A stretch of DNA of 64,000 bases from Zymomonas mobilis (GTDB lineage Bacteria; Pseudomonadota; Alphaproteobacteria; Sphingomonadales; Sphingomonadaceae): NCBI RefSeq assembly GCF_006715975.1, contig NZ_VFOF01000001.1, forward strand, positions 382,001 through 446,000, read 5' to 3'. Both the position numbers and the translations under genes were made by a program. The notes under the pieces are model-generated. The model was given only the letters and a program-made list of their open reading frames with translations. It was not told where the DNA came from and did not search any database. How positions within the stretch are numbered: the first letter of the stretch is position 1; each line of letters starts with the position of its first letter. Positions 49,230 through 60,678 of this stretch are shown piece by piece.

Positions 49230-50174
49230 ATGACCTGTCTTTTTAGTGACGCCCCTATACCCGATCATTTATATGGTGCCATTGTTGCGCTCGGTAATTT
49301 TGATGGCTTTCATTTAGGCCATCAGGCTGTGGTTGCCGCAGCCGTTGCGCGTGCCCATGCTGAAGGCCGCCCTGTTATTGTCGCGACCTTTGATCCGCAT
49401 CCGGTTCGGTTTTTCTGCCCTGAGCTACCGCCTTTTGCGTTGACGACTATTCCGCAGCGCGCACGCCTATTCAAAAACGCGGGAGCAGATGCGACTTTTG
49501 TTATTCGTTTCTCGGCGGAGATGGCCAGTCTTTCACCTGAAGAATTTATTCAGAAACAGTTGATTGGTCATTTGAAAGCCGCGGGGGTCGTTACCGGACA
49601 GGATTTTACCTTTGGTAAAGGGCGAAAAGGTGGCATCGATTTATTACAGAAGATGGGACAGGATTTAGGAATTTCTGTCGATACCATCATGCCAGTCTGT
49701 GACCAGCAAGGCGCGGTTTCTTCTACCCGTATTCGTGAAGCCTTGAAAAAAGGTGAACCGGAGACAGCTGCGCGGCTTCTTAGCCGTCCCTTTACGGTCG
49801 AAGGCATTGTCCGTCACGGTAATCAAGTCGGGCGTCAGTTAGGGTTCCCAACCGCCAATCTGTTAATGGGCGATTATGTTCGACCGGCTTATGGTATCTA
49901 TGCAGTAAGGGGGCGGTTGCCCGATGGGCGTTATTTGGATGGTGCCGCTAATTTAGGCATCCGGCCAAGCTTTTCGCCGCCGACCGAATGGTTAGAGCCT
50001 TGCTTCTTTGACTGGGAAGGCGATATTTATGACCAGACAATCGCGGTTTCTTTGATTGCTTTCTTGCGGTCAGAGCAGAAATTTAACGGCATGGATGCTT
50101 TAATCCAGCAGATTGCCGAGGATTGTAAAGTTGCCCGCGCCTGTTTAAGCGAATATGACGTTGATCCTATCTAA
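49230..50174 (+). CDS. ribF: Bifunctional riboflavin kinase / FAD synthetase
   Basis: A 314-aa enzyme making FMN then FAD. The N-terminal adenylyltransferase domain has GNFDGFHLGHQAV and the late SSTRIREAL motif. The C-terminal kinase has GNQVGRQLGFPTANL and the catalytic Glu-containing strand LEPCFFDWEGDIY. It precedes ileS-lspA, a common order in proteobacteria (ribF-ileS-lspA). No FMN riboswitch was seen upstream. Confidence 0.95.
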   Translation: MTCLFSDAPIPDHLYGAIVALGNFDGFHLGHQAVVAAAVARAHAEGRPVIVATFDPHPVRFFCPELPPFALTTIPQRARLFKNAGADATFVIRFSAEMASLSPEEFIQKQLIGHLKAAGVVTGQDFTFGKGRKGGIDLLQKMGQDLGISVDTIMPVCDQQGAVSSTRIREALKKGEPETAARLLSRPFTVEGIVRHGNQVGRQLGFPTANLLMGDYVRPAYGIYAVRGRLPDGRYLDGAANLGIRPSFSPPTEWLEPCFFDWEGDIYDQTIAVSLIAFLRSEQKFNGMDALIQQIAEDCKVARACLSEYDVDPI

Positions 50175-50228
50175 AATAGGCAATAATCGGTTAGATATCT
50201 GCTGTCTGTAAATAATCCTGTTTCTTCC

Positions 50229-50264
50229 GGGAAAGCTTTACATTAAAGGTATCTTTCCTTTTTT
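50229..50264 (+). terminator. Probable terminator after ribF
   Basis: GGAAAG and CTTTCC pair around 17 bases that can form a small inner stem (CTTTA/TAAAG-like), followed by TTTTTT. It lies 27 bases before the ileS ATG, so it could also be an attenuator in the ileS leader. Confidence 0.5.
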
Positions 50265-50290
50265 ATCCCGTTTCGTATCAGAGCTTCATT

Positions 50291-53116
50291 ATGTCCGATC
50301 AAAAATCTGCCGATGCTACCAAGGCGCGCGACTGGCGTCCGACTGTTTTTCTGCCTAAAACTTCTTTCCCGATGAAAGCCGGTTTAGCTAGAAAAGAACC
50401 GGAAATCTTAGAGCGTTGGCAAAAAGAAGACCTTTACCAGCAATTACGCGAACAGCGTAAAGGCGCGGAACGCTTCATTTTGCATGATGGCCCGCCTTAC
50501 GCCAATGGCGATATCCATATCGGTCATGCTCTGAATAAGATTTTAAAAGATATCGTAATGCGCAGCCAGACCTTGTTGGGGAAGGATGTACCTTATGTCC
50601 CCGGCTGGGATTGTCATGGCCTGCCGATTGAATGGAAAGTCGAAGAGCAGTTTCGTAAGAAAAAACTGAATGTTGATAAAGATGTGAACGCCGTTGAATT
50701 CCGTCAGGAATGCCGGAAATATGCCGTTCACTGGGTAGATACCCAGCGTCAGGAATTCAAAAGATTGGGTGTCTTAGGGGAATGGGATAACCCCTATTTG
50801 ACCATGAATTTTGAAGCCGAAGCGATTATTGCCGGTGAATTGATGCGGTTTTCTGAAACCGGTCAGATTTATCGCGGTGCAAAACCGGTTTTATGGTCGG
50901 TTATTGAAAAGACAGCTTTGGCAGAAGCTGAAGTTGATTATGCCGATGTCGATTCCACGACGATTGATTTGGCGTTTAAGATTACTGACAGCAAAATCCC
51001 TGAATTAGTCGGTGGATATGCGGTTATCTGGACGACGACACCTTGGACTATTCCGGTTAACCGTGCTTTGGCCTATGGCCCTGATATTGATTATGTTCTC
51101 GCTGATTTGAACGGCAAGCATTATCTGTTTGCAGAAGCTTTGCTGGAAGAAAGCCTGAAACGGATCGGCCATGAAGGGGATGCACCTATCCTGTGGCGGG
51201 GTAAGGGCGCAGAACTGGACGGCAGTGTTGCTCAGCATCCGATGTTTGAAAAGGGCGGTTTCTTTGCTGAACCTCGTCCGTTCTTGGGTGGCACGCATGT
51301 GACGACTGAAGCCGGAACCGGCATCGTCCATATGGCGCCTGATTATGGTGAAGATGACTTCTTGCTTTGCAAGGCGCATCAGATTGATCCGGTTTTTGCC
51401 GTTGAAGATGACGGTCGTTACCGGAAAGATTGGTTGTGGATGGGCGGCGAAGGACTCGTCATTTCGCCGAAGATCAATGCCGCGGATGGCCCGATCTGTT
51501 CCGATTTGAGAGAAGTCGGTGCTTTATTGGCCACTTCGGTTCTGCACCATAGCTATCCCCATAGTTGGCGTTCTAAAGCCAAGCTGATTTATCGTTGCAC
51601 CCCGCAATGGTTTATCGCGCTTGATCGTCAGGTCAAAGAAGGCGCAATCGCGGGTAAAACCCTGCGCGAAACGGCTTTGGAAGCGATTGACGAAGTAAAC
51701 TGGTTCCCAGCCAAAGGGAAAAATCGCATCCAGACGATGGTAGAAGGTCGCCCCGATTGGGTTATTTCTCGCCAGCGGGCTTGGGGTGTTCCGATTACCC
51801 TTTATGTTAATCGTGAATCCGGCGATTATTTACGTGATCCCGAAGTGAATGCCCGTATTCTGGAGGCCTTCCGTAAAGAAGGTGCCGATGCTTGGTTCAA
51901 AGCCGACCATCAGACTTTCCTTGGCGATAAATATCGTCTCGAAGATTATGAGCCGGTCAACGACATTTTGGATGTTTGGTTTGATTCAGGATCGACCCAT
52001 GCTTTTGTCGTAGAAGCTCGTTACGGTGAAGGCACGCGCGCCCAGCTTTATTTAGAAGGTTCAGATCAGCATCGCGGTTGGTTCCAGTCTTCCTTGCTGG
52101 AAAGCTGTGGTTCACGTGGGCATGCACCTTATGATGCGGTGATGACGCATGGCTTTACCTTGGATGGTAATGGCCGCAAGATGTCGAAATCTGTTGGTAA
52201 CGTCATTGATCCTTTGAAGGTTATCAATGAAAGCGGTGCCGATATCCTGCGTATGTGGGTGGCTTCGACAGATTATACCGAAGATGTTCGTATCGGTAAG
52301 GAAGTCTTGTCTGGCACGTCAGATGGCTATCGTAAATTGCGGAATAGCTTCCGTTATCTTTTGGGTGCCTTGGAAGGTTTCTCGGAAGACGAAAAAGTCG
52401 CCATCGCTGATTTACCAGAACTTGAAAAATATGTTCTTCATCTTCTGGCTGAGCTTGATAAGGGTTTGCATGAAGCTGTCGATGCTTTTGCATTCAACCG
52501 TTATCTGCGTTTGTTATCCGATTTCGTGAATAATGACCTGTCGGCTTTCTTCTTCGATATTCGGAAAGACCGGTTATATTGCGATATTGGTCCTGCGGAA
52601 CCGAAAGGTACCCAAGAACGGCGCGCTTATCGCACGGTTTTGGATATCCTGTTCCATGCTTTGGTGCGTTATGCTGCCCCAATCTTGTGCTTTACGGCAG
52701 AAGAAGTGTGGTTGCATCGTTTCCCTGATGCGCAGTCTGTTCATTTGTCGGTTTGGCCGGAAGTGGATAGCCAGTGGAAAAATGGCGCTTTGGGTGAAAA
52801 ATGGGCCGTTATTCGTGAACAACGCCAGATTGTAACCGAAAAGATTGAACCGTTGCGGCGTGAAAAAATCGTAGGCTCCAGCCTTGAGGCTGAAGTGACC
52901 TTGCCGGTTGATGCCGCGACCGCAGAAATTCTTTCTTCGGTTAATTTCTCTGAGCTTTGCATTACCGCCAAAATCAAGCTGGTTGATGCTGCTGATGCGG
53001 CAATAACGGTTGACCGCACCGAAAACCATAAATGTGGTCGTTGTTGGCAGCATCTTCCTGAAGTGGAAGAAGATGGCGCTTTATGCAGCCGTTGTCAGGC
53101 CGTTGTTGGTGAGTAA
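50291..53116 (+). CDS. ileS: Isoleucyl-tRNA synthetase
   Basis: A 941-aa class I synthetase. The HIGH motif lies in NGDIHIGHALNKILKD, the GWDCHGLPIE motif follows, the CP1 editing domain is present (TTTPWTIPVN) and KMSKS is intact in GRKMSKSVGNVID. The C-terminal zinc site has two pairs of cysteines (CGRCW and CSRC), as in bacterial-type IleRS. lspA starts 3 bases after the stop, so the two share a transcript. Confidence 0.98.
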   Translation: MSDQKSADATKARDWRPTVFLPKTSFPMKAGLARKEPEILERWQKEDLYQQLREQRKGAERFILHDGPPYANGDIHIGHALNKILKDIVMRSQTLLGKDVPYVPGWDCHGLPIEWKVEEQFRKKKLNVDKDVNAVEFRQECRKYAVHWVDTQRQEFKRLGVLGEWDNPYLTMNFEAEAIIAGELMRFSETGQIYRGAKPVLWSVIEKTALAEAEVDYADVDSTTIDLAFKITDSKIPELVGGYAVIWTTTPWTIPVNRALAYGPDIDYVLADLNGKHYLFAEALLEESLKRIGHEGDAPILWRGKGAELDGSVAQHPMFEKGGFFAEPRPFLGGTHVTTEAGTGIVHMAPDYGEDDFLLCKAHQIDPVFAVEDDGRYRKDWLWMGGEGLVISPKINAADGPICSDLREVGALLATSVLHHSYPHSWRSKAKLIYRCTPQWFIALDRQVKEGAIAGKTLRETALEAIDEVNWFPAKGKNRIQTMVEGRPDWVISRQRAWGVPITLYVNRESGDYLRDPEVNARILEAFRKEGADAWFKADHQTFLGDKYRLEDYEPVNDILDVWFDSGSTHAFVVEARYGEGTRAQLYLEGSDQHRGWFQSSLLESCGSRGHAPYDAVMTHGFTLDGNGRKMSKSVGNVIDPLKVINESGADILRMWVASTDYTEDVRIGKEVLSGTSDGYRKLRNSFRYLLGALEGFSEDEKVAIADLPELEKYVLHLLAELDKGLHEAVDAFAFNRYLRLLSDFVNNDLSAFFFDIRKDRLYCDIGPAEPKGTQERRAYRTVLDILFHALVRYAAPILCFTAEEVWLHRFPDAQSVHLSVWPEVDSQWKNGALGEKWAVIREQRQIVTEKIEPLRREKIVGSSLEAEVTLPVDAATAEILSSVNFSELCITAKIKLVDAADAAITVDRTENHKCGRCWQHLPEVEEDGALCSRCQAVVGE

Positions 53117-53119
53117 GGC

Positions 53120-53626
53120 GTGACCCAAAAAACAATTCTGTCCGATTTATCAACAAATAATGTCAGGGGGGCAGGCTTTTTAGTCGCCCTTCTGGCCTTT
53201 TGTTTTGACCAGTTCAGTAAATATTATGTGACATATCCCTTGGCTTTGCCTGAGCGGATGGAAATACAGATATTGCCCATTTTTCAATTAAAATGGGTAT
53301 TGAATTACGGCATTTCGATGGGATTTTTGACCGCCGGAAGTGATGTCGGGCGTTGGATTTTGGTCGGTTTAACGGCGGCCATTGCCTTGGCTGTGGTGAT
53401 TTTGATTTTACGCGAAAAGCATTTTTTTTCGGCTATGGCGCTTGGGCTTGTATTAGGGGGCGCTATCGGTAATATCACAGACCGGATACGGGCGGGCGCG
53501 GTCGTTGATTTTCTCGATTTACATTTTGGTAACTTGCATCCTTTTTTAGTCTTTAATGTCGCGGATGCTGCCATAAGTTGTGGGGTTGCTTTTCTGATCT
53601 TGCGCTCATTATGGTCAAAAAACTAG
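53120..53626 (+). CDS. lspA: Lipoprotein signal peptidase (signal peptidase II)
   Basis: A 168-aa inner-membrane aspartyl protease that removes the signal peptide from prolipoproteins after Lgt has acted. It has four membrane helices. The conserved blocks are WVLNYGISMGF (usually N.GA.FG), NITDRIRAGAVVDFLDLHFGN with the first catalytic Asp, and FLVFNVADAAIS with the second. The GTG start lies 3 bases after ileS. All catalytic residues are present. Confidence 0.95.
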   Translation: MTQKTILSDLSTNNVRGAGFLVALLAFCFDQFSKYYVTYPLALPERMEIQILPIFQLKWVLNYGISMGFLTAGSDVGRWILVGLTAAIALAVVILILREKHFFSAMALGLVLGGAIGNITDRIRAGAVVDFLDLHFGNLHPFLVFNVADAAISCGVAFLILRSLWSKN

Positions 53627-53730
53627 GATGAGAATAAGGCTACCTGATTTTTGAGGTAAGCTTCTTTCTATGAAACTTTGGGACTGAGAAACATCCTTCT
53701 CTTTTTTCCGAATCTGCTGGAGCTTTTAAT

Positions 53731-54246
53731 GTGATGATAAAAACGACCAAGAATAATCCTGTTGCTCCCTTTTTGAAGATATCTGGTATAATCATTATGG
53801 GGATGGTGACAGCGATTACGGCTGGTTGCACCACACATAAGTCTAAACCCGGGGTTTTCGCTAATCCTCGTGCCAGCGAGATGGAAGCATCCCGTCAGCA
53901 GCCTTTGGTTATCCCACCGGAATTCACCCTTGCTCCGCCAAAACCAGGTGCGCCGCGGCCTCAGGATACGGATAGTTCAACCCAAGCTTTGGCAGCTATG
54001 TTTGGGCAGCCTGCTGTAAAGGCCGCCGCCGAACGGGGGCTTTTGGAAAAAGCTTCTGCCCGTCGTGCCCAGCCTGGGATTCGTAGCTCGGTCGGTGATG
54101 CTGATACGGAAACCGTGAATAAAGGTGGTTTAACGAGTGATATCGTTGCAGCCCCTGCAAAGCAGGATGATTTGGCTGTTGTCAGGGCAGGGGGACAGGC
54201 AAGCCCATCCGCCCCGCCGGTTACCTATAAAAATATGCCGCAATAA
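53731..54246 (+). CDS. BamF/DUF3035 lipoprotein
   Basis: A 171-aa lipoprotein with the lipobox ITAGC (Cys33). The mature part contains RQQPLVIPPEFTLAPPKPG, the hallmark Pro-rich motif of DUF3035, and a disordered Ala/Pro-rich tail. DUF3035 corresponds to BamF, an accessory subunit of the alphaproteobacterial outer-membrane beta-barrel assembly machine (from memory of Caulobacter work). The location just after lspA matches other sphingomonads. Confidence 0.8.
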   Translation: MMIKTTKNNPVAPFLKISGIIIMGMVTAITAGCTTHKSKPGVFANPRASEMEASRQQPLVIPPEFTLAPPKPGAPRPQDTDSSTQALAAMFGQPAVKAAAERGLLEKASARRAQPGIRSSVGDADTETVNKGGLTSDIVAAPAKQDDLAVVRAGGQASPSAPPVTYKNMPQ

Positions 54247-54260
54247 TATTATCGGGAGAA

Positions 54261-54704
54261 TTAACGTCCCCGATAAGGTGGCACGCCCTGTTCCGGCAAC
54301 CATAAGTCCTGAGGGGGCGTTCCGCTTTGCCAGAAAACATCAATGGGAATGCCGCCGCGCGGATACCAATATCCGCCGATGCGCAGCCATTGGGCTTTCA
54401 TTTCTGTAAAAAGTTTCTCTCCGATTCCGACCGTGCAATCTTCGTGAAAAGCGCGATGATTGCGGAAAGACCCTAAAAATAATTTTAGGGATTTGGATTC
54501 GACGATCAGTTTATCTGGCACATAATCAATAACCAGATGAGCAAAATCCGGTTGTCCCGTTACCGGACAAAGCGATGTGAATTCAGGAATCGCAAAACGG
54601 ATAAGATAATTTTTCCCCTGACGAGGATTTGGGACATAATCAAGGGTAGCCTGCTCTGGCGATTGCGGCAGTGGGCTGGTTTTGCCTAAATGTGTTGTTT
54701 GCAT
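54261..54704 (-). CDS. queF: NADPH-dependent 7-cyano-7-deazaguanine reductase
   Basis: QueF reduces preQ0 to preQ1 in queuosine synthesis. It has 147 aa, the short unimodular (YkvM) type. The catalytic Cys is in [15 protein letters not shown], the NADPH motif is [13 protein letters not shown], and the catalytic Asp lies in FHEDC. No preQ1 riboswitch was recognised upstream (190 bp to the divergent fusion gene). The other que genes are not in the window. Confidence 0.94.
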
Positions 54705-54894
54705 GGGCTTATATTATCCTGTTATTTATCAGGGGAAAACCTCGAATGAGGACAGGATACCCAATATCGTTGGTAATTTTTTAAAAAATTATCAGTATTT
54801 ATTACAAATAATGAAATTAAACATTTTTGAATATGTTAAGGCATTTTTTGCTGTAAAATTTTATTTGAATACAGTTATCAGGATGAATTGAATT

Positions 54895-56931
54895 ATGAAG
54901 CTTTTGGTAACGCCAGAGTGGTTATATCGTAATCTAGCCAATCCACGATTACATATTATTGATGCCGGAAGCTATCCACCTGATGTCGATACCAAGGCTT
55001 ATGATGAATATTGCAAGGCGCATATTCCTGGCGCGCTTTTCCTTGATAACCGTCTATTAAGAGATGAAAATGCACCTTTGCCGAGAATGGTGCCCAGTAT
55101 TGATAAAGTCGAATATGAATTTGGGCGATTGGGATTAGATCCCGATGACATAATTGTTATTTACGACAATTTATCTTTACCTTCGGCCGCCCGAGCATGG
55201 TGGCTGTTGATGCTGCATGAATACCGTCATGTCATGCTGTTGGATGGGGGGCTGACACGCTGGAAAGGGGAGCGTTTGCCGGTTGAAAGCGGTGCCGCGA
55301 TTTCATCCTCGCCGATCATCTTGCAGCTTTCCCGCAATGAAGCGCTTATTCGCACCCGTAATCAGGTGATGCATAATATCGTTTCAGGGCATGAAGTCAT
55401 TGTCGATGCCCGTGCGCCTAAGGTCTTTAGTGGTGAAGCCGTTGCTAATCCAGCGCTTGCCCCAGGTCACATTCCGCATAGTCTTAATTTGCCCTATGAG
55501 GAATTGTTGGACGATAATGGGTGCTGGAAAACCACGAGCAAAATTGAGCAGGCCTTTGCGAGAAATCGGATTGATCTTGACCAACCTTTGCTGTTCACTT
55601 GTGGTGCGGGAAGAACAGCTCCGGCGTTGTTATTTGCTGCCCGCCTTTTAGGGAAAAGAGATGTTTCCCTTTATGATGGTTCATGGGAAGAATGGGGCAG
55701 TGACCCCGACACACCGAAAGAAGTAGGCCCCGCTATTCGTGAATCGACGAGGCTGATTACCGCAGGGCGTCGCCGTGAATGGGTCAAAGGGAAAGGTGGA
55801 TCGGTTGTTAATCCGCCGGTCTGGCGCGCATCGACTATTTTGTTTGATTCGGTTGCCGGATTAGAAAATGCCTCCAGTCATCCAGATGATCAGCTTTATT
55901 ATGGTCGTCGTGGCACGCCGACCCAATGGGCTTTGGTCGATGCATTAACCGAATTGCATCCCGGAGCGGAATCGACGGTGCTGTATCCGTCAGGTGTTGC
56001 CGCTTTATCCATGGCATTATTAAGCGCTTTGGAACCCGGTGACGAATTGCTGATGGTGGATAGCTGTTATGAACCGACCCGCGTATTTTGTGATACCGTT
56101 TTAAAGGCGCAAGGTATCAATGTTACCTATTATGATCCGTTGGTCGGTCAGGAAATAGAGCATTTATTCACGCCGAAAACGCGGGCTATATTTTTGGAGA
56201 GCCCAGGTAGTCTGACTTTTGAAGTGCAGGATATTCCCGGCATTTGTGAAGTTGCCCATCGCCATTCGATTACCACTATCCTTGATAATACATGGGCAAC
56301 GCCTTTGTTTTTTTCGGCTATTGAACGTGGTATTGATTTGGTCGTTATGGCCTGCACCAAATATATCACCGGCCATTCGGACACCATGATGGGATCAGTT
56401 ACCGCTGTTCCTGGTCATTTCGATAAATTGAAACGGATAAGTGGCCTTTTTGGCCAGTATGTTGGTCCTGATGATGCTAATTCTGCCTTAAAAGGATTAC
56501 GCACCCTGAAAGTCCGCCTGAAAGAGCATGAAAAAAATGCTCTTAAAGTGGCAAAATGGCTGAGTGAACAGCCGGAAGTCGCTTGGGTGCTGCATCCGGC
56601 TATGTCCTCTTGTCCGGGGCATGAATTTTGGAACCGTGATTTCAAAGGCTCGTCTGGTCTGTTTAGCTTCGTTTTGGAAGGCGGCAACAACCAAGATAGA
56701 ACGGTCTTTATTGATAGCTTGGAACATTTTGGTATCGGTTTCTCATGGGGCGGCTATGAAAGCCTTGCTTTGCCGGTCGATCCGCAGCCGATACGTACGG
56801 CGGCAAGCTGGCAGGCTGCAGGACCTGTTGTTCGTTTGCATATTGGACTCGAAGACCCTGATGATCTGATCGCTGATTTAGCTTTTGGGTTGAAACGTTT
56901 CAGGGCTTCGAGAGACCAATCCGGTTTTTAG
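54895..56931 (+). CDS. Fusion: 3-mercaptopyruvate sulfurtransferase - cystathionine beta-lyase
   Basis: A single 678-aa frame holding two enzymes. Residues 1-278 are a tandem-rhodanese sulfurtransferase (SseA-like): an inactive first domain (HIPGALFLD, LDGGLTRWKGE), then the active Cys236 in LFTCGAGRTAP, ending YDGSWEEWG. The loop is CGAGRTA instead of the usual CGSGVTA. Residues about 284-670 are a complete MetC-type PLP enzyme: AGRRREW start, YYGRRGTPTQWALVDALT, YPSGVAALSM, LDNTWATPLFF and the PLP Lys489 in ACTKYITGHSD. The join is tight, with no linker. In related bacteria the two are normally separate genes, often neighbours. Confidence 0.9.
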   Translation: MKLLVTPEWLYRNLANPRLHIIDAGSYPPDVDTKAYDEYCKAHIPGALFLDNRLLRDENAPLPRMVPSIDKVEYEFGRLGLDPDDIIVIYDNLSLPSAARAWWLLMLHEYRHVMLLDGGLTRWKGERLPVESGAAISSSPIILQLSRNEALIRTRNQVMHNIVSGHEVIVDARAPKVFSGEAVANPALAPGHIPHSLNLPYEELLDDNGCWKTTSKIEQAFARNRIDLDQPLLFTCGAGRTAPALLFAARLLGKRDVSLYDGSWEEWGSDPDTPKEVGPAIRESTRLITAGRRREWVKGKGGSVVNPPVWRASTILFDSVAGLENASSHPDDQLYYGRRGTPTQWALVDALTELHPGAESTVLYPSGVAALSMALLSALEPGDELLMVDSCYEPTRVFCDTVLKAQGINVTYYDPLVGQEIEHLFTPKTRAIFLESPGSLTFEVQDIPGICEVAHRHSITTILDNTWATPLFFSAIERGIDLVVMACTKYITGHSDTMMGSVTAVPGHFDKLKRISGLFGQYVGPDDANSALKGLRTLKVRLKEHEKNALKVAKWLSEQPEVAWVLHPAMSSCPGHEFWNRDFKGSSGLFSFVLEGGNNQDRTVFIDSLEHFGIGFSWGGYESLALPVDPQPIRTAASWQAAGPVVRLHIGLEDPDDLIADLAFGLKRFRASRDQSGF

Positions 56932-56955
56932 CCCAAAATATCCCTTAAAATATAG

Positions 56956-56991
56956 TTTCCGGCTTGTTTTTCTTCAAAAACAAGCCGGAAA
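56956..56991. terminator. Perfect hairpin after the fusion gene
   Basis: TTTCCGGCTTGTTTTT and its complement form 16-base perfect arms around CTTC, 24 bases after the stop. The T tract lies within the stem rather than after it, so termination strength is uncertain. Confidence 0.6.
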
Positions 56992-57000
56992 TAGGCTTTC

Positions 57001-57043
57001 CAAGCTTTGTCATGATCGTTAGAGAGAAGGACAACAAAGCTTG
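57001..57043 (+). promoter_or_regulatory. Leader hairpin before efp
   Basis: CAAGCTTTG (57001-57009) and CAAAGCTTG (57035-57043) are perfect arms around 25 bases, then TTTTAGG. It ends 44 bases before the efp ATG and could be an attenuator or the tail of the preceding termination region. Confidence 0.35.
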
Positions 57044-57087
57044 TTTTAGGCTTGCTCTTTTCCTTTTTTAGTAATCGCGAGACCGAC

Positions 57088-57651
57088 ATGAAAATCAGTG
57101 GCGTCGATATTCGGCCCGGTAATATTCTTGAATATGAAGGTGGCCTGTGGCGGGCTGCGAAAATCCAGCATACCCAGCCCGGTAAGGGCGGGGCCTATAT
57201 GCAGGTTGAAATGAAAAATCTGATCGACGGACGGAAGACCAATGTCCGTTTCCGTTCGGCTGAAACTGTAGAACGGGTTCGTCTCGATACCAAAGATTTT
57301 CAATATCTGTTTGCCGATGGCGATATGCTGACCTTCATGGACAAAGAAACCTATGAACAGATTTCTTTAGTCAAAGATTTGTTAGGCGATGCCGTACCGT
57401 TCTTGCAGGATGGTATGGATGTTGTCATGGAATTATATGAAGAAAAGCCGATTTCGGTTCAGTTGCCGGAACAGGTCGAAGCTGAAATTGTCGAGGCTGA
57501 TGCCGTGATTAAAGGCCAGACAGCTTCTTCTTCCTATAAACCAGCTATTCTTGATAATGGCGTTCGGGTTATGGTTCCTCCCCATATCACAGCCGGCACG
57601 CGTATTATTGTCGATGTGAATACCCAAGAATATGTAAAGCGGGCAGATTAA
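57088..57651 (+). CDS. efp: Translation elongation factor P
   Basis: EF-P rescues ribosomes stalled at polyproline. It has 187 aa and three beta-barrel domains. The modification loop reads QPGKGGAY with Lys33 at the tip, so the beta-lysylation type (EpmA/EpmB) is expected; these genes are not in the window. The start [14 protein letters not shown] fixes the ATG at 57088 (the frame is open to 57052). suhB overlaps its stop codon (TAATG). Confidence 0.96.
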
Positions 57652-58466
57652 TGGCAGCTCCTGGTCTTATTTCTATTATGGAGCGTGCTGCACGTAAGGC
57701 AGCGCCTCTCCTTCGGCGTGATTTCGGCGAAGTTCAGCATTTGCAGGTGAGCCGTAAGGGGCCTGCTGATTTTGTTTCGATTGCAGATAAACGGTCTGAA
57801 CAGACCATTTATGAAATTTTGAAACATGCCCGTCCTGATTGGGGCTTTTTAGGTGAAGAAACTGGCGCAATTCCGGGTGATCCCACCAAGCCGCGCTGGA
57901 TCGTTGATCCTTTGGATGGCACGTCCAACTTCTTGCATGCGATTCCGCATTTTGCGGTTTCCATTGCGGTCGAAGAGCCGAAAGCCGATGGCACGGGTGA
58001 AATTACCCAAGCTTTGGTTTATCAGCCAATTACCGATGAAAGCTTTTGGGCTGAAAAAGGCCGTGGTGCATGGTTGCATGATAGCCGCATCCGCGTTTCT
58101 TCCCGTCGTAATCTCAATGAAGCTTTGATCGCGACCGGTATTCCTTTCGCAGGTCATGGCAATTTCGATCAGTGGGAAGCTATTTTCCGCCAGATTTCAC
58201 CGCAGGTTGCTGGAACTCGTCGTTTCGGTGCCGCCGCGCTTGATTTGGCTTGGGTCGCTGCTGGTCGTTTCGATGCCTATTGGGAATCCGAAATTTATCC
58301 GTGGGATGTCGCAGCTGGTATGTTGCTGGTTCGCGAAGCTGGTGGTTTCGTTACCGATTTCCGTGGTGGCGATCAGCCGATCGAACGCCGTGAATTTTTG
58401 GCCGCCACGAGTGGCTTGCATTCCAAGCTTCATCGCTTGGTCGCAACGGCTTTGAAAAATATCTGA
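57651..58466 (+). CDS. suhB: Inositol monophosphatase family protein
   Basis: A 271-aa Mg2+-dependent phosphatase. Metal-site motifs are GEETGAIPGD, WIVDPLDGTSNFLHAIPHF and the late YPWDVAAGMLLVREAGG, all intact. The ATG overlaps the efp stop, so it is translationally coupled; efp-suhB adjacency is common in alphaproteobacteria. SuhB homologues also act as Nus-factor partners in ribosomal RNA synthesis in E. coli, so the role could be wider than inositol phosphate hydrolysis. Confidence 0.92.
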   Translation: MAAPGLISIMERAARKAAPLLRRDFGEVQHLQVSRKGPADFVSIADKRSEQTIYEILKHARPDWGFLGEETGAIPGDPTKPRWIVDPLDGTSNFLHAIPHFAVSIAVEEPKADGTGEITQALVYQPITDESFWAEKGRGAWLHDSRIRVSSRRNLNEALIATGIPFAGHGNFDQWEAIFRQISPQVAGTRRFGAAALDLAWVAAGRFDAYWESEIYPWDVAAGMLLVREAGGFVTDFRGGDQPIERREFLAATSGLHSKLHRLVATALKNI

Positions 58467-58490
58467 TAACGGGGGCTTTTGTCCTTAGTT

Positions 58491-58531
58491 AAAAGCGGTA
58501 GTAGGGGATAACCTTTGCTGCCGCTTTTTTT
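58491..58531 (+). terminator. Terminator of efp-suhB
   Basis: AAAAGCGGTAG and CTGCCGCTTTT pair (one G-U) around a 16-base loop and are followed by T residues. The remaining gap to 58897 is AT-rich and holds no gene that I can support; a 76-codon minus-strand frame there has no recognisable features. Confidence 0.8.
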
Positions 58532-58897
58532 ATGGATTTAGCGCAAGCGCGACTCGTAGGAAGGATTCGTTTTCTTAAAGGCGATCCTTGTCCTAGCTTT
58601 GGCTTTATTTTTCAAAACAACGTAATTTATGAAGGTCGGTTTCATACCAAAAGGTAAAACGTGCTGACGACACGACAAAAGGTCTCTTTTCGTTATTTCC
58701 GAAATCATCAAAATCATCCTATGATGACCAGTATAGTCCGAAAATCTTTTTTTTAGCTTTTGGGACAAAAGTTTTCCCCATGTTTTCGTAATACTTTGTC
58801 AATATTTTTGTGGCAAATTTAAAGGATGCACAGGTTCACTCCTTTTTTTTGAAGGGGAAAATCGAAAAGGCATTATTGTAAGGATTGAGGTGGCGAA

Positions 58898-59494
58898 ATG
58901 AAAAGAAAGCTTGGTCGTCGCCAGTTATTAACTGGCTTTGTTGCCCTAGGCGGTATGGCGATTACAGCTAATAAGGCTCAGGCTTCTTTACATCAGCCGG
59001 GATCTGATTTTCTTCACTGGGATACTGTAAAAGAAAAGCGGCTTGCTTTTCGGAATGTTCATACGAATGAACGCATTGATGCCCGTTTTTTTGGTAAACA
59101 CGGCTATGACGATGAAGGTTTGGCAGAAATCAATCATGCTTTGAGAGATTGGCGAACCGGTGACATTACCGAAGTCGATACCGATCTTTTAAATCTGTTG
59201 GTAAAAATCCGCGATCGTTTGGATATATCGGCCACTCAGCCTTTTGATCTGATTTGTGGTTATCGTTCCCCCATTACAAACCGTCGTTTGCATGAACGTC
59301 GTGGTCGCCATAGTGGCGTTGCTGTCCATAGTCAGCATTTGTTGGGTAAAGCGACCGATATCGCTATGCCGGGGATATCATTGAACCATCTCCGTATGGC
59401 TGCTGAATTCGATCAGCAGGGGGGCGTTGGTTATTATCCCGAAGATGGTTTTATCCATGTTGATACGGGGCCTGTCCGTAGCTGGCAGGGCTGA
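58898..59494 (+). CDS. DUF882 (peptidase M15-like, MepK/YcbK-type) exported protein
   Basis: A 198-aa protein with a Tat leader (LGRRQLLTGFVALGG, ending QASL). The domain has FDLICGYRSPITNRRLHER, the zinc-ligand region SQHLLGKATDIAMPG and the late FIHVDTGPVR. These are the His/Asp ligands of the LAS/M15 peptidase fold of YcbK/MepK, which cleaves peptidoglycan cross-links. Export by Tat with zinc already bound is plausible. It is a single gene with its own terminator. Confidence 0.92.
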   Translation: MKRKLGRRQLLTGFVALGGMAITANKAQASLHQPGSDFLHWDTVKEKRLAFRNVHTNERIDARFFGKHGYDDEGLAEINHALRDWRTGDITEVDTDLLNLLVKIRDRLDISATQPFDLICGYRSPITNRRLHERRGRHSGVAVHSQHLLGKATDIAMPGISLNHLRMAAEFDQQGGVGYYPEDGFIHVDTGPVRSWQG

Positions 59495-59515
59495 TCGTCT
59501 ACAAGATACCTTTTG

Positions 59516-59547
59516 AAAAGCCTGAGTTAAAAACTCAGGCTTTTTTT
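59516..59547. terminator. Bidirectional terminator between DUF882 and thiE
   Basis: AAAAGCCTGAGTT and AACTCAGGCTTTT are perfect arms around AAA with A and T tracts on both sides. The two genes converge on it. Confidence 0.92.
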
Positions 59548-59555
59548 ATTAGTGA

Positions 59556-60272
59556 TTAAGCAAGTTCGCCTTTGGCAGCTTTTTCGAGAATTTTGTTGAA
59601 ATTTTCGACGGCTTTGGTTTCGCCTTCTTTGGCTTTCCAAATGCCTGCGCAGATGGCGACAAAATCGGCTCCGGCCTTTACCAGAGGGGCGACATTTTCT
59701 GTCGTAATACCACCAATGGCAACTGAAGGCAGTTCGAACAAGGTTGCCCACCATGAAAGAATTTCTGGACGGGCATAGTAACGGACTTCTTTGCTGGTGG
59801 TGGGATAGAATGCCCCAAAAGCCACATAGTCAGCGCTTTTTTCACCTGCAAGCATCGCCAAATGGCGGCTATTATGACAGGTGACGCCGATTTGTGCAGA
59901 AGGCCCCAGAATGACGCGGGCTTCGGCGGCATCGCCATCACCTTGGCCGAGATGCACGCCGTCAGCATCCAGTCTTTTAGCGAGAGAGACGCTGTCATTG
60001 ATGATAAAAGCGACATCCCGATCATTGCATAATTTTTGCAACGGCTCTGCCAGTCTGGCGATGGCATGTTCATTGATGCCCTTCAATCGGAGCTGAAAGG
60101 CTGAAACTTCGCCGCCGTCAAAAGCTTTTTCCAAGCGTTCGACGAAATGTTCATCTATTTCGGGCGGTGAAATGAGGTAAAGGCCGCAGGGATTGTTGGC
60201 CGGCCGTTGGTAATTATCCGTGAAGGCATCTAAGGCTTCATCATGTTCGGTTAAAAGTTCGTTTTCTGCCAT
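59556..60272 (-). CDS. thiE: Thiamine phosphate synthase
   Basis: ThiE joins the pyrimidine and thiazole halves to thiamine phosphate. It has 238 aa and a TIM barrel. Motifs are FQLRLKG, FIINDSVSLAKRLDADGVHLGQGD, IGVTCHNS, YVAFGAFYPTTSK and a final VAIGGITTENV. About 25 extra residues precede the barrel. No TPP riboswitch was seen upstream, so regulation may be by another route. Confidence 0.92.
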   Translation of the reverse strand: MAENELLTEHDEALDAFTDNYQRPANNPCGLYLISPPEIDEHFVERLEKAFDGGEVSAFQLRLKGINEHAIARLAEPLQKLCNDRDVAFIINDSVSLAKRLDADGVHLGQGDGDAAEARVILGPSAQIGVTCHNSRHLAMLAGEKSADYVAFGAFYPTTSKEVRYYARPEILSWWATLFELPSVAIGGITTENVAPLVKAGADFVAICAGIWKAKEGETKAVENFNKILEKAAKGELA

Positions 60273-60678
60273 TATGCTTCCTTTGTACCCTAGAAGGGCC
60301 TTGCTTGGTTACGGCTTTTAGCAAAATAATTGGGAATTGAGCAGTGCTATAAACAGATGTTTGTTTATCTAGTATCTGCTTCTTTTGTTGTAATTAGGTG
60401 TTGCGATGCTGCCTGACATAGTTATTTACGGGTATAATGATAATCTTTCCGGTAATGTCCTATAGAAGAGAATTTATAGCCGTGACCATGTAACCGGATT
60501 GCTCATAATATAAAAATACTTCTGAAATTTTAGTTATCCCGACAATAACCTGCATTTTGCCCTTTGCAGTTATCGGTATCTTCTATCTTGTCGTAATAAT
60601 GAATATGTTTTGAGGGTCTATTACCCTGATATTAAAAAGCACGAACCGGAAAAGCGTAAAAGGAAAGGCCGAAATAAA
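60273..60678. other. Gap before the MipZ-like gene
   Basis: A divergent region of about 400 bp. TATAAT at 60433-60438 (plus strand, -35 poor) is a possible -10. ATAAC(c)TGCA with TGCAGTTAT near 60546-60573 makes a hairpin about 105 bases before the gene. The frame from 60610 to 60678 (basic residues) is not part of the protein. Nothing else is seen. Confidence 0.4.

Follow-up and report, generated by a model that had tools for sequence, protein, structure and literature searches.

The sst-metC fusion gene and its surroundings

The window analysed here is a stretch of 64,000 nucleotides from the 2.10-Mb genome of Zymomonas mobilis. On its forward strand, positions 54895..56931 are taken up by a single open frame of 678 codons plus stop, in which a two-domain sulfurtransferase (SST; residues 1-280, 54895..55734) is joined to a MetC-type PLP beta-C-S lyase (residues 282-670, 55738..56904). 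The first half is delimited by Pfam, NCBIfam and structure matches, the second by NCBIfam and a structure match to 1cl1. Pfam reports two Rhodanese stretches, the first at best covering residues 6-125 (54910..55269) and the second, which bears the cysteine, lying at 55369..55701 (437369-437701 of the contig), followed by Cys_Met_Meta_PP at residues 285-666. Since similarity to SSTs stops at residue 276-279 and similarity to MetC begins at residue 282 (residue 5 of the E. coli protein), there is almost no linker at the junction. An earlier note on this DNA, made from its letters alone, had described just such an uninterrupted frame, its domains joined without a linker near residue 280, and the translation of the window agrees with it from end to end; the reverse-complement frame over the same interval contains many stops.

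The gene is stop-free over its full length in all four Zymomonas genomes compared, with proteins 80-100% identical to that of the window. Their agreement rules out a sequencing or assembly error or a missed stop between the domains, which the low dN/dS of both halves (see below) likewise leads us to reject. A separate MetC made from an internal start was considered as well, and the sequence argues against it: between residues 251 and 345 no ATG, GTG, TTG or CTG codon is common to the four fused frames, and thus no start-like codon for such a product appears to be conserved.

Upstream and divergent lies queF (preQ1 synthase; 54261..54704, minus strand), assigned by NCBIfam and locus comparison, while the gene for elongation factor P follows downstream. 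A perfect 16-pair hairpin (56956..56991) begins 24 bases past the fusion stop and resembles a terminator only when read on the minus strand, there being no T run after it on the plus strand. Near the gene, a promoter scan returned 7 candidates against 4.4 expected, and an Rfam search at gathering scores over 50000-60500 found no known RNA. Besides, a 171-aa frame sits between lspA and queF (53731-54246); it had no NCBIfam match at 1e-20, and its start looks like that of a lipoprotein.

A conserved lyase half and a rebuilt sulfurtransferase site

The lyase half scores 480-482 bits with the MetC model TIGR01324, above the cut-off of 365.9; four further beta-lyase models (PRK09028, 05967, 08114 and 07050) rank high for this half too, with scores that stay below the stricter thresholds set for them. 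Y56, R58, Y111, D185, K210, W340 and R372, which we take to be the catalytic residues of MetC, are all present in the four fused proteins. Overall, all four share the E. coli MetC residue at 15 of the 18 positions checked, including Y336, R338, Y392, D464, K489, W618 and R647, and the other three (E. coli MetC 87, 182 and 238) vary in unfused partners too. By residue alignment, codon 489 (56359..56361) encodes the PLP-binding lysine, E. coli MetC Lys210. A fold search with the whole-protein model returned MetC-type chains in all 50 rows listed, with no rhodanese row among them, and superimposed the lyase half on E. coli MetC (1cl1) with Z 52.0 and rmsd 1.9 over 383 aligned residues. This half most probably remains a PLP beta-C-S lyase, its motifs being in place; what sets it apart from MetC, which it matches in score and positions, is the 280-residue N-terminal sulfurtransferase.

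Less obvious is where cystathionine for such an enzyme would come from. Apart from the fusion, a single strong Cys/Met PLP match turned up in this genome (777413-778549 of the contig); it is MetZ-like and fits best as an O-succinylhomoserine sulfhydrylase, albeit under the cut-offs of those models (TIGR01325, 496.8 v 510.05 bits); by eye, the frame adjoining it reads like 3-isopropylmalate dehydrogenase. Five PALP-family genes were typed as two cysteine synthases, a threonine ammonia-lyase, a tryptophan synthase beta chain and a threonine synthase, and none of the five passed the cut-off for cystathionine beta-synthase. Z. mobilis is described as being without metB in the introduction of PMC3668280, and according to PMC6970198 the sulfur source may decide whether a MetB/MetZ-like enzyme forms cystathionine. 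The genome therefore offers no evident source of cystathionine, although a MetB/MetZ-like enzyme might make some, and cystathionine may not be the main substrate of the lyase.

The whole-protein model was poor in the SST half, and in the alignment behind it the rows with SST alone were out of place, at 16-22% identity to the query. Folded alone, residues 1-281 gave a pLDDT of 94.1, with 5wqk, a 3MST entry, as the best row against the PDB (Z 38.2, rmsd 1.9, 278 aligned), tied with the rhodanese 8q5z (Z 37.9); 3MST and rhodanese matches overall ranged from Z 33 to 38. The half thus has the tandem rhodanese fold and a cysteine in a CGxG loop. On the NCBIfam model for mercaptopyruvate sulfurtransferase (MST; PRK11493), however, the fused half reaches just 198-201.3 bits, below the cut-off of 250, whereas six unfused partners score 232-292 bits, five of them above the cut-off and the sixth at 231.6.

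Differences at the substrate site go in the same direction. In human MST, Arg188 and Arg197 are the two arginines that contact 3-mercaptopyruvate (3MP), and Ser250 of the loop belongs to a proposed Ser-His-Asp triad, according to PMC12926118. The position of Arg188 (codon 177, 55423..55425) holds V, V, V and L in the fused proteins against R in 49/49 unfused partners, and that of Arg197 (codon 185, 55447..55449) holds N, N, N and K against R in 45/49. The active-site loop, CGAGRTA (residues 236-242, 55600..55620), retains the cysteine, Cys236, which is human Cys248 in the alignment and invariant in all four fused and all 49 unfused proteins. Ala238 replaces the serine in 4/4 (S or T in 49/49 unfused), Arg240 takes the place of Val252 in 4/4 (R in 0/49), and the Glu195 position reads V, V, V and M (E or D in 48/49). 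The equivalents of what we take to be Asp63 and His74 in human numbering are absent as well; as these vary among unfused partners too (D in 19/49, H in 22/49), their loss means less. None of the four has lost Cys236, Gly237, Gly239, Thr241, Trp264 or R173, the DAR arginine. At least 85% of the unfused SSTs agree at 67 positions; all four fused proteins keep 53 of these and all four have another residue at 12, and three of four named residues fall among these 12 (hypergeometric p 0.016, post hoc). Thiosulfate sulfurtransferase (TST) has the loop CRKGVTA, with Arg/Lys following the Cys; this is not the loop of the fused SST.

Compared with SseA/MST (1urh, 3olh, 5wqk), the Zymomonas half therefore shares the two rhodanese domains, the C-terminal catalytic cysteine and the fold, but both 3MP-binding arginines and the loop serine are replaced, Arg240 is added and MetC is fused. 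Cys236, the PLP lysine at 489 and the CGAGRTA loop are all as the earlier note had given them; its complete tandem-rhodanese sulfurtransferase, on the other hand, is complete in fold and departs from the published active-site set. Because the loop change is part of a larger alteration of the 3MP site that is fixed in four species, a changed sulfur donor is well supported at the level of sequence, and the half probably no longer uses 3MP. Besides, no other rhodanese-domain match was found in any of the four Zymomonas genomes, the same search being positive in 13 of 14 control genomes.

Of note, milder loop variation occurs among unfused SSTs: five (L011, L018, L023, L025 and L034) carry CGTGVTA, with Thr for Ser and both arginines retained. 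Four others (L096, L100, L103 and L126) have no second arginine, and the loop of L096 reads CNSGVTA, possibly an independent drift of 3MP recognition.

Probable origin from a gene pair and subsequent evolution

Outside Zymomonas, no stop-free full-length match was listed in samples of 249 family, 386 class, 396 order and 397 phylum genomes, which overlap and each include one to four Zymomonas; every full-length match listed there carries a stop, the best two to four candidates per genome having been scored. A scan for exact peptide patterns, limited to 80 loci, likewise gave no fusion outside the genus among the matches listed. Among the genomes sampled, the fusion is thus confined to Zymomonas and Sphingomonadales has adjacent genes, which bears on the question of its spread in that order raised by the earlier note.

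Among the loci fetched, many from Sphingomonadales and from further Alphaproteobacteria contain the adjacent pair. In 51 loci of relatives, sst and metC are neighbours in the same order as in the fusion, from a 4-nt overlap (10 loci) up to 154 nt apart, distances that depend on our choice of start codons. The best-scoring 30 family loci comprise 4 fused, 25 adjacent and one (L106) without SST, and 20 of 29 further class loci have the adjacent pair; as loci were picked by score, these counts are not a census. A divergent queF lies upstream of 19 of the 51 unfused pairs, as in Zymomonas, the upstream reach of most loci being limited to between some hundred and 1500 bases. Given the shared order and the queF neighbour, an old gene pair most likely became fused where it stood, and comparison places the loss of the boundary between the ancestral neighbours in the Zymomonas ancestor. 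In the locus without SST, metC directly follows queF with no SST match between or nearby, which may reflect loss of the SST gene. In a Rhodospirillaceae locus (L034), the contig stops within MetC, yet sst and metC can already be seen to be unfused.

One locus (L010) was dropped for lying on the same contig as L004. The residue counts above cover 49 of the 51 pairs, L111 and L140 being left out with SSTs under 260 aa, and trees were built from 45 pairs and three fused proteins (48 in total), with L093, L096, L126 and L034 further excluded and L004 omitted as a near-copy of L003. In these trees of 48 proteins, the Zymomonas stem has a length of 0.996 for SST and 0.348 for MetC (within-group medians, 0.80 and 0.65), lengths that are only roughly comparable because the sister of the fused clade is L104 alone in the MetC tree and a broad clade in the SST tree. 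Distance ratios are the fairer measure: for SST over MetC, the three fused proteins are the top three of 48 (2.03-2.26), the next value being 1.85 and the median 1.13. Within the genus, dN/dS between L002 and L003 is 0.055 for the SST half and 0.043 for the MetC half, and against the most distant species (L005) it is 0.074-0.148 and 0.053-0.064, respectively, with dS near saturation. The SST half thus appears to have changed fast on the Zymomonas stem and to be under purifying selection now, if under less constraint than MetC in the comparison with the most distant species, where dS nears saturation. Low dN/dS in both halves after the burst on the stem points to new constraint rather than decay, and this course would fit a new job better than decay, a non-catalytic job being possible. 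With both the fusion and the loss of residues fixed throughout the genus, either may have come first, and the two may or may not be linked.

A possible sulfur relay and its alternatives

We favour, with a probability of about 0.4, a reading in which the fusion protein is a C-S lyase with a rhodanese half that has stopped accepting 3MP and relays persulfide sulfur from the lyase half instead. The SST half would have ceased to recognise 3MP with the loss of both arginines and the loop serine, keeping the cysteine, the loop glycines and the threonine. The lyase half would act on cystine, cysteine or related beta-substrates, and the SST half would take its sulfur elsewhere, most likely as persulfide acceptor for what the lyase releases. 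Persulfide or sulfide would reach Cys236 and then pass on to a cell thiol or protein. In favour of such a relay, cystine is turned into cysteine persulfide by a cystathionine gamma-lyase, a member of the family to which MetC belongs (PMC7483736), and a rhodanese cysteine relays persulfide in a cysteine desulfurase-rhodanese fusion, an activity weakened in a Cys-to-Ser variant (PMC8931425). Against it, MetC, unlike cysteine desulfurase, is not known to form an enzyme persulfide, so transfer would go via a free product. Moreover, deletion of metC in E. coli barely altered cysteine degradation and left H2S as in the wild type, and sulfane sulfur was traced to an aminotransferase plus MST (PMC6401616). 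The fuller version, that a Cys/Met-family lyase persulfide, e.g. from cystine, loads a captive rhodanese without a 3MP site of its own and constitutes the only rhodanese route of Zymomonas to sulfane sulfur, strikes us as rather doubtful.

Fusion need not imply traffic between the halves. With the pair already adjacent in close relatives, fusion would have needed little, and the MetC half, its residues intact, could simply make homocysteine from cystathionine next to a separate SST that has shifted to thiosulfate or an organic persulfide, the single chain only fixing equal amounts of the two; the positive charge brought in by Arg240 of the loop could serve to bind a different anion. Such an arrangement has to contend with a loop that is not of the TST type, with the MetZ-like enzyme being the only one near MetB seen in the window genome, and with an adjacency whose long conservation suggests a functional tie; we regard it as the main rival, possible though on the unlikely side. 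The SST half might instead have given up catalysis and serve the MetC oligomer as a folded scaffold, a stabiliser or a binding domain. Loss of the residues equivalent to R188, R197, E195, S250 and D63/H74, fast evolution on the stem and a constraint looser than that on MetC in the comparison with L005, all within an intact fold, would be consistent with this, but a half that is no enzyme hardly accounts for the retention of Cys236, Gly237, Gly239, Thr241, Trp264 and R173 in all four proteins or for its low dN/dS, and D63 and H74 vary in unfused partners too; we consider it improbable.

Least credible, in our estimate, is the picture originally drawn in the earlier note, in which a single chain unites a standard mercaptopyruvate sulfurtransferase with an equally standard cystathionine beta-lyase. 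The solved structures most similar to the halves are indeed 3MST/rhodanese and MetC, but the SST half scores under the curated MST cut-off and below all six unfused partners, and the 3MP-site residues are missing in 4/4. Two complete standard enzymes are thus not supported as far as the SST half is concerned. The interpretation in that note holds in part, in that the fusion exists and is maintained across the genus, with a sequence that speaks for a change of donor, and finds no support where it took the SST half to be complete. As for the direct hand-over of sulfur between the two active sites that it had envisaged, this may occur under the relay that we favour.

If the relay holds, sulfur handed over by a beta-lyase should be able to sustain a rhodanese in place of 3MP. 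Neighbouring sst and metC genes are common in Alphaproteobacteria, and no stated reason for this was met in those parts of the open literature that were searched; with a fusion provided by nature, in which the sulfurtransferase site has been rebuilt, their functional tie can be tested directly in a tractable organism. Besides, metabolic models could be led astray if the protein were named after one half only, as "cystathionine beta-lyase" or as "mercaptopyruvate sulfurtransferase".

In searches of the open literature, with subscription journals mostly outside their scope, no title dealt with an sst-metC fusion, the order of the partners or the rebuilt substrate site, and the part of PMC3658271 examined contains nothing on the fusion gene. 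The closest relative in arrangement is the alphaproteobacterial pair itself, with the same genes in the same order and the queF neighbour, differing in that it makes two proteins and that its SST has the 3MP-site residues mostly intact. Rhodanese fusions, including one with a PLP sulfur enzyme, are already known. The latter, the CD-Rhd protein of Pseudorhodoferax, likewise unites a PLP sulfur enzyme and a rhodanese in one chain, and its rhodanese cysteine relays sulfur (PMC8931425); its PLP half, however, is a desulfurase with a persulfide cysteine of its own and its rhodanese is C-terminal, whereas the PLP half in Zymomonas belongs to Cys_Met_Meta_PP and is no desulfurase. In persulfide dioxygenase-rhodanese (5ve3) and CoADR-RHD (3icr), a rhodanese is also joined to a sulfur enzyme, though going by their titles the partners are not MetC-like.
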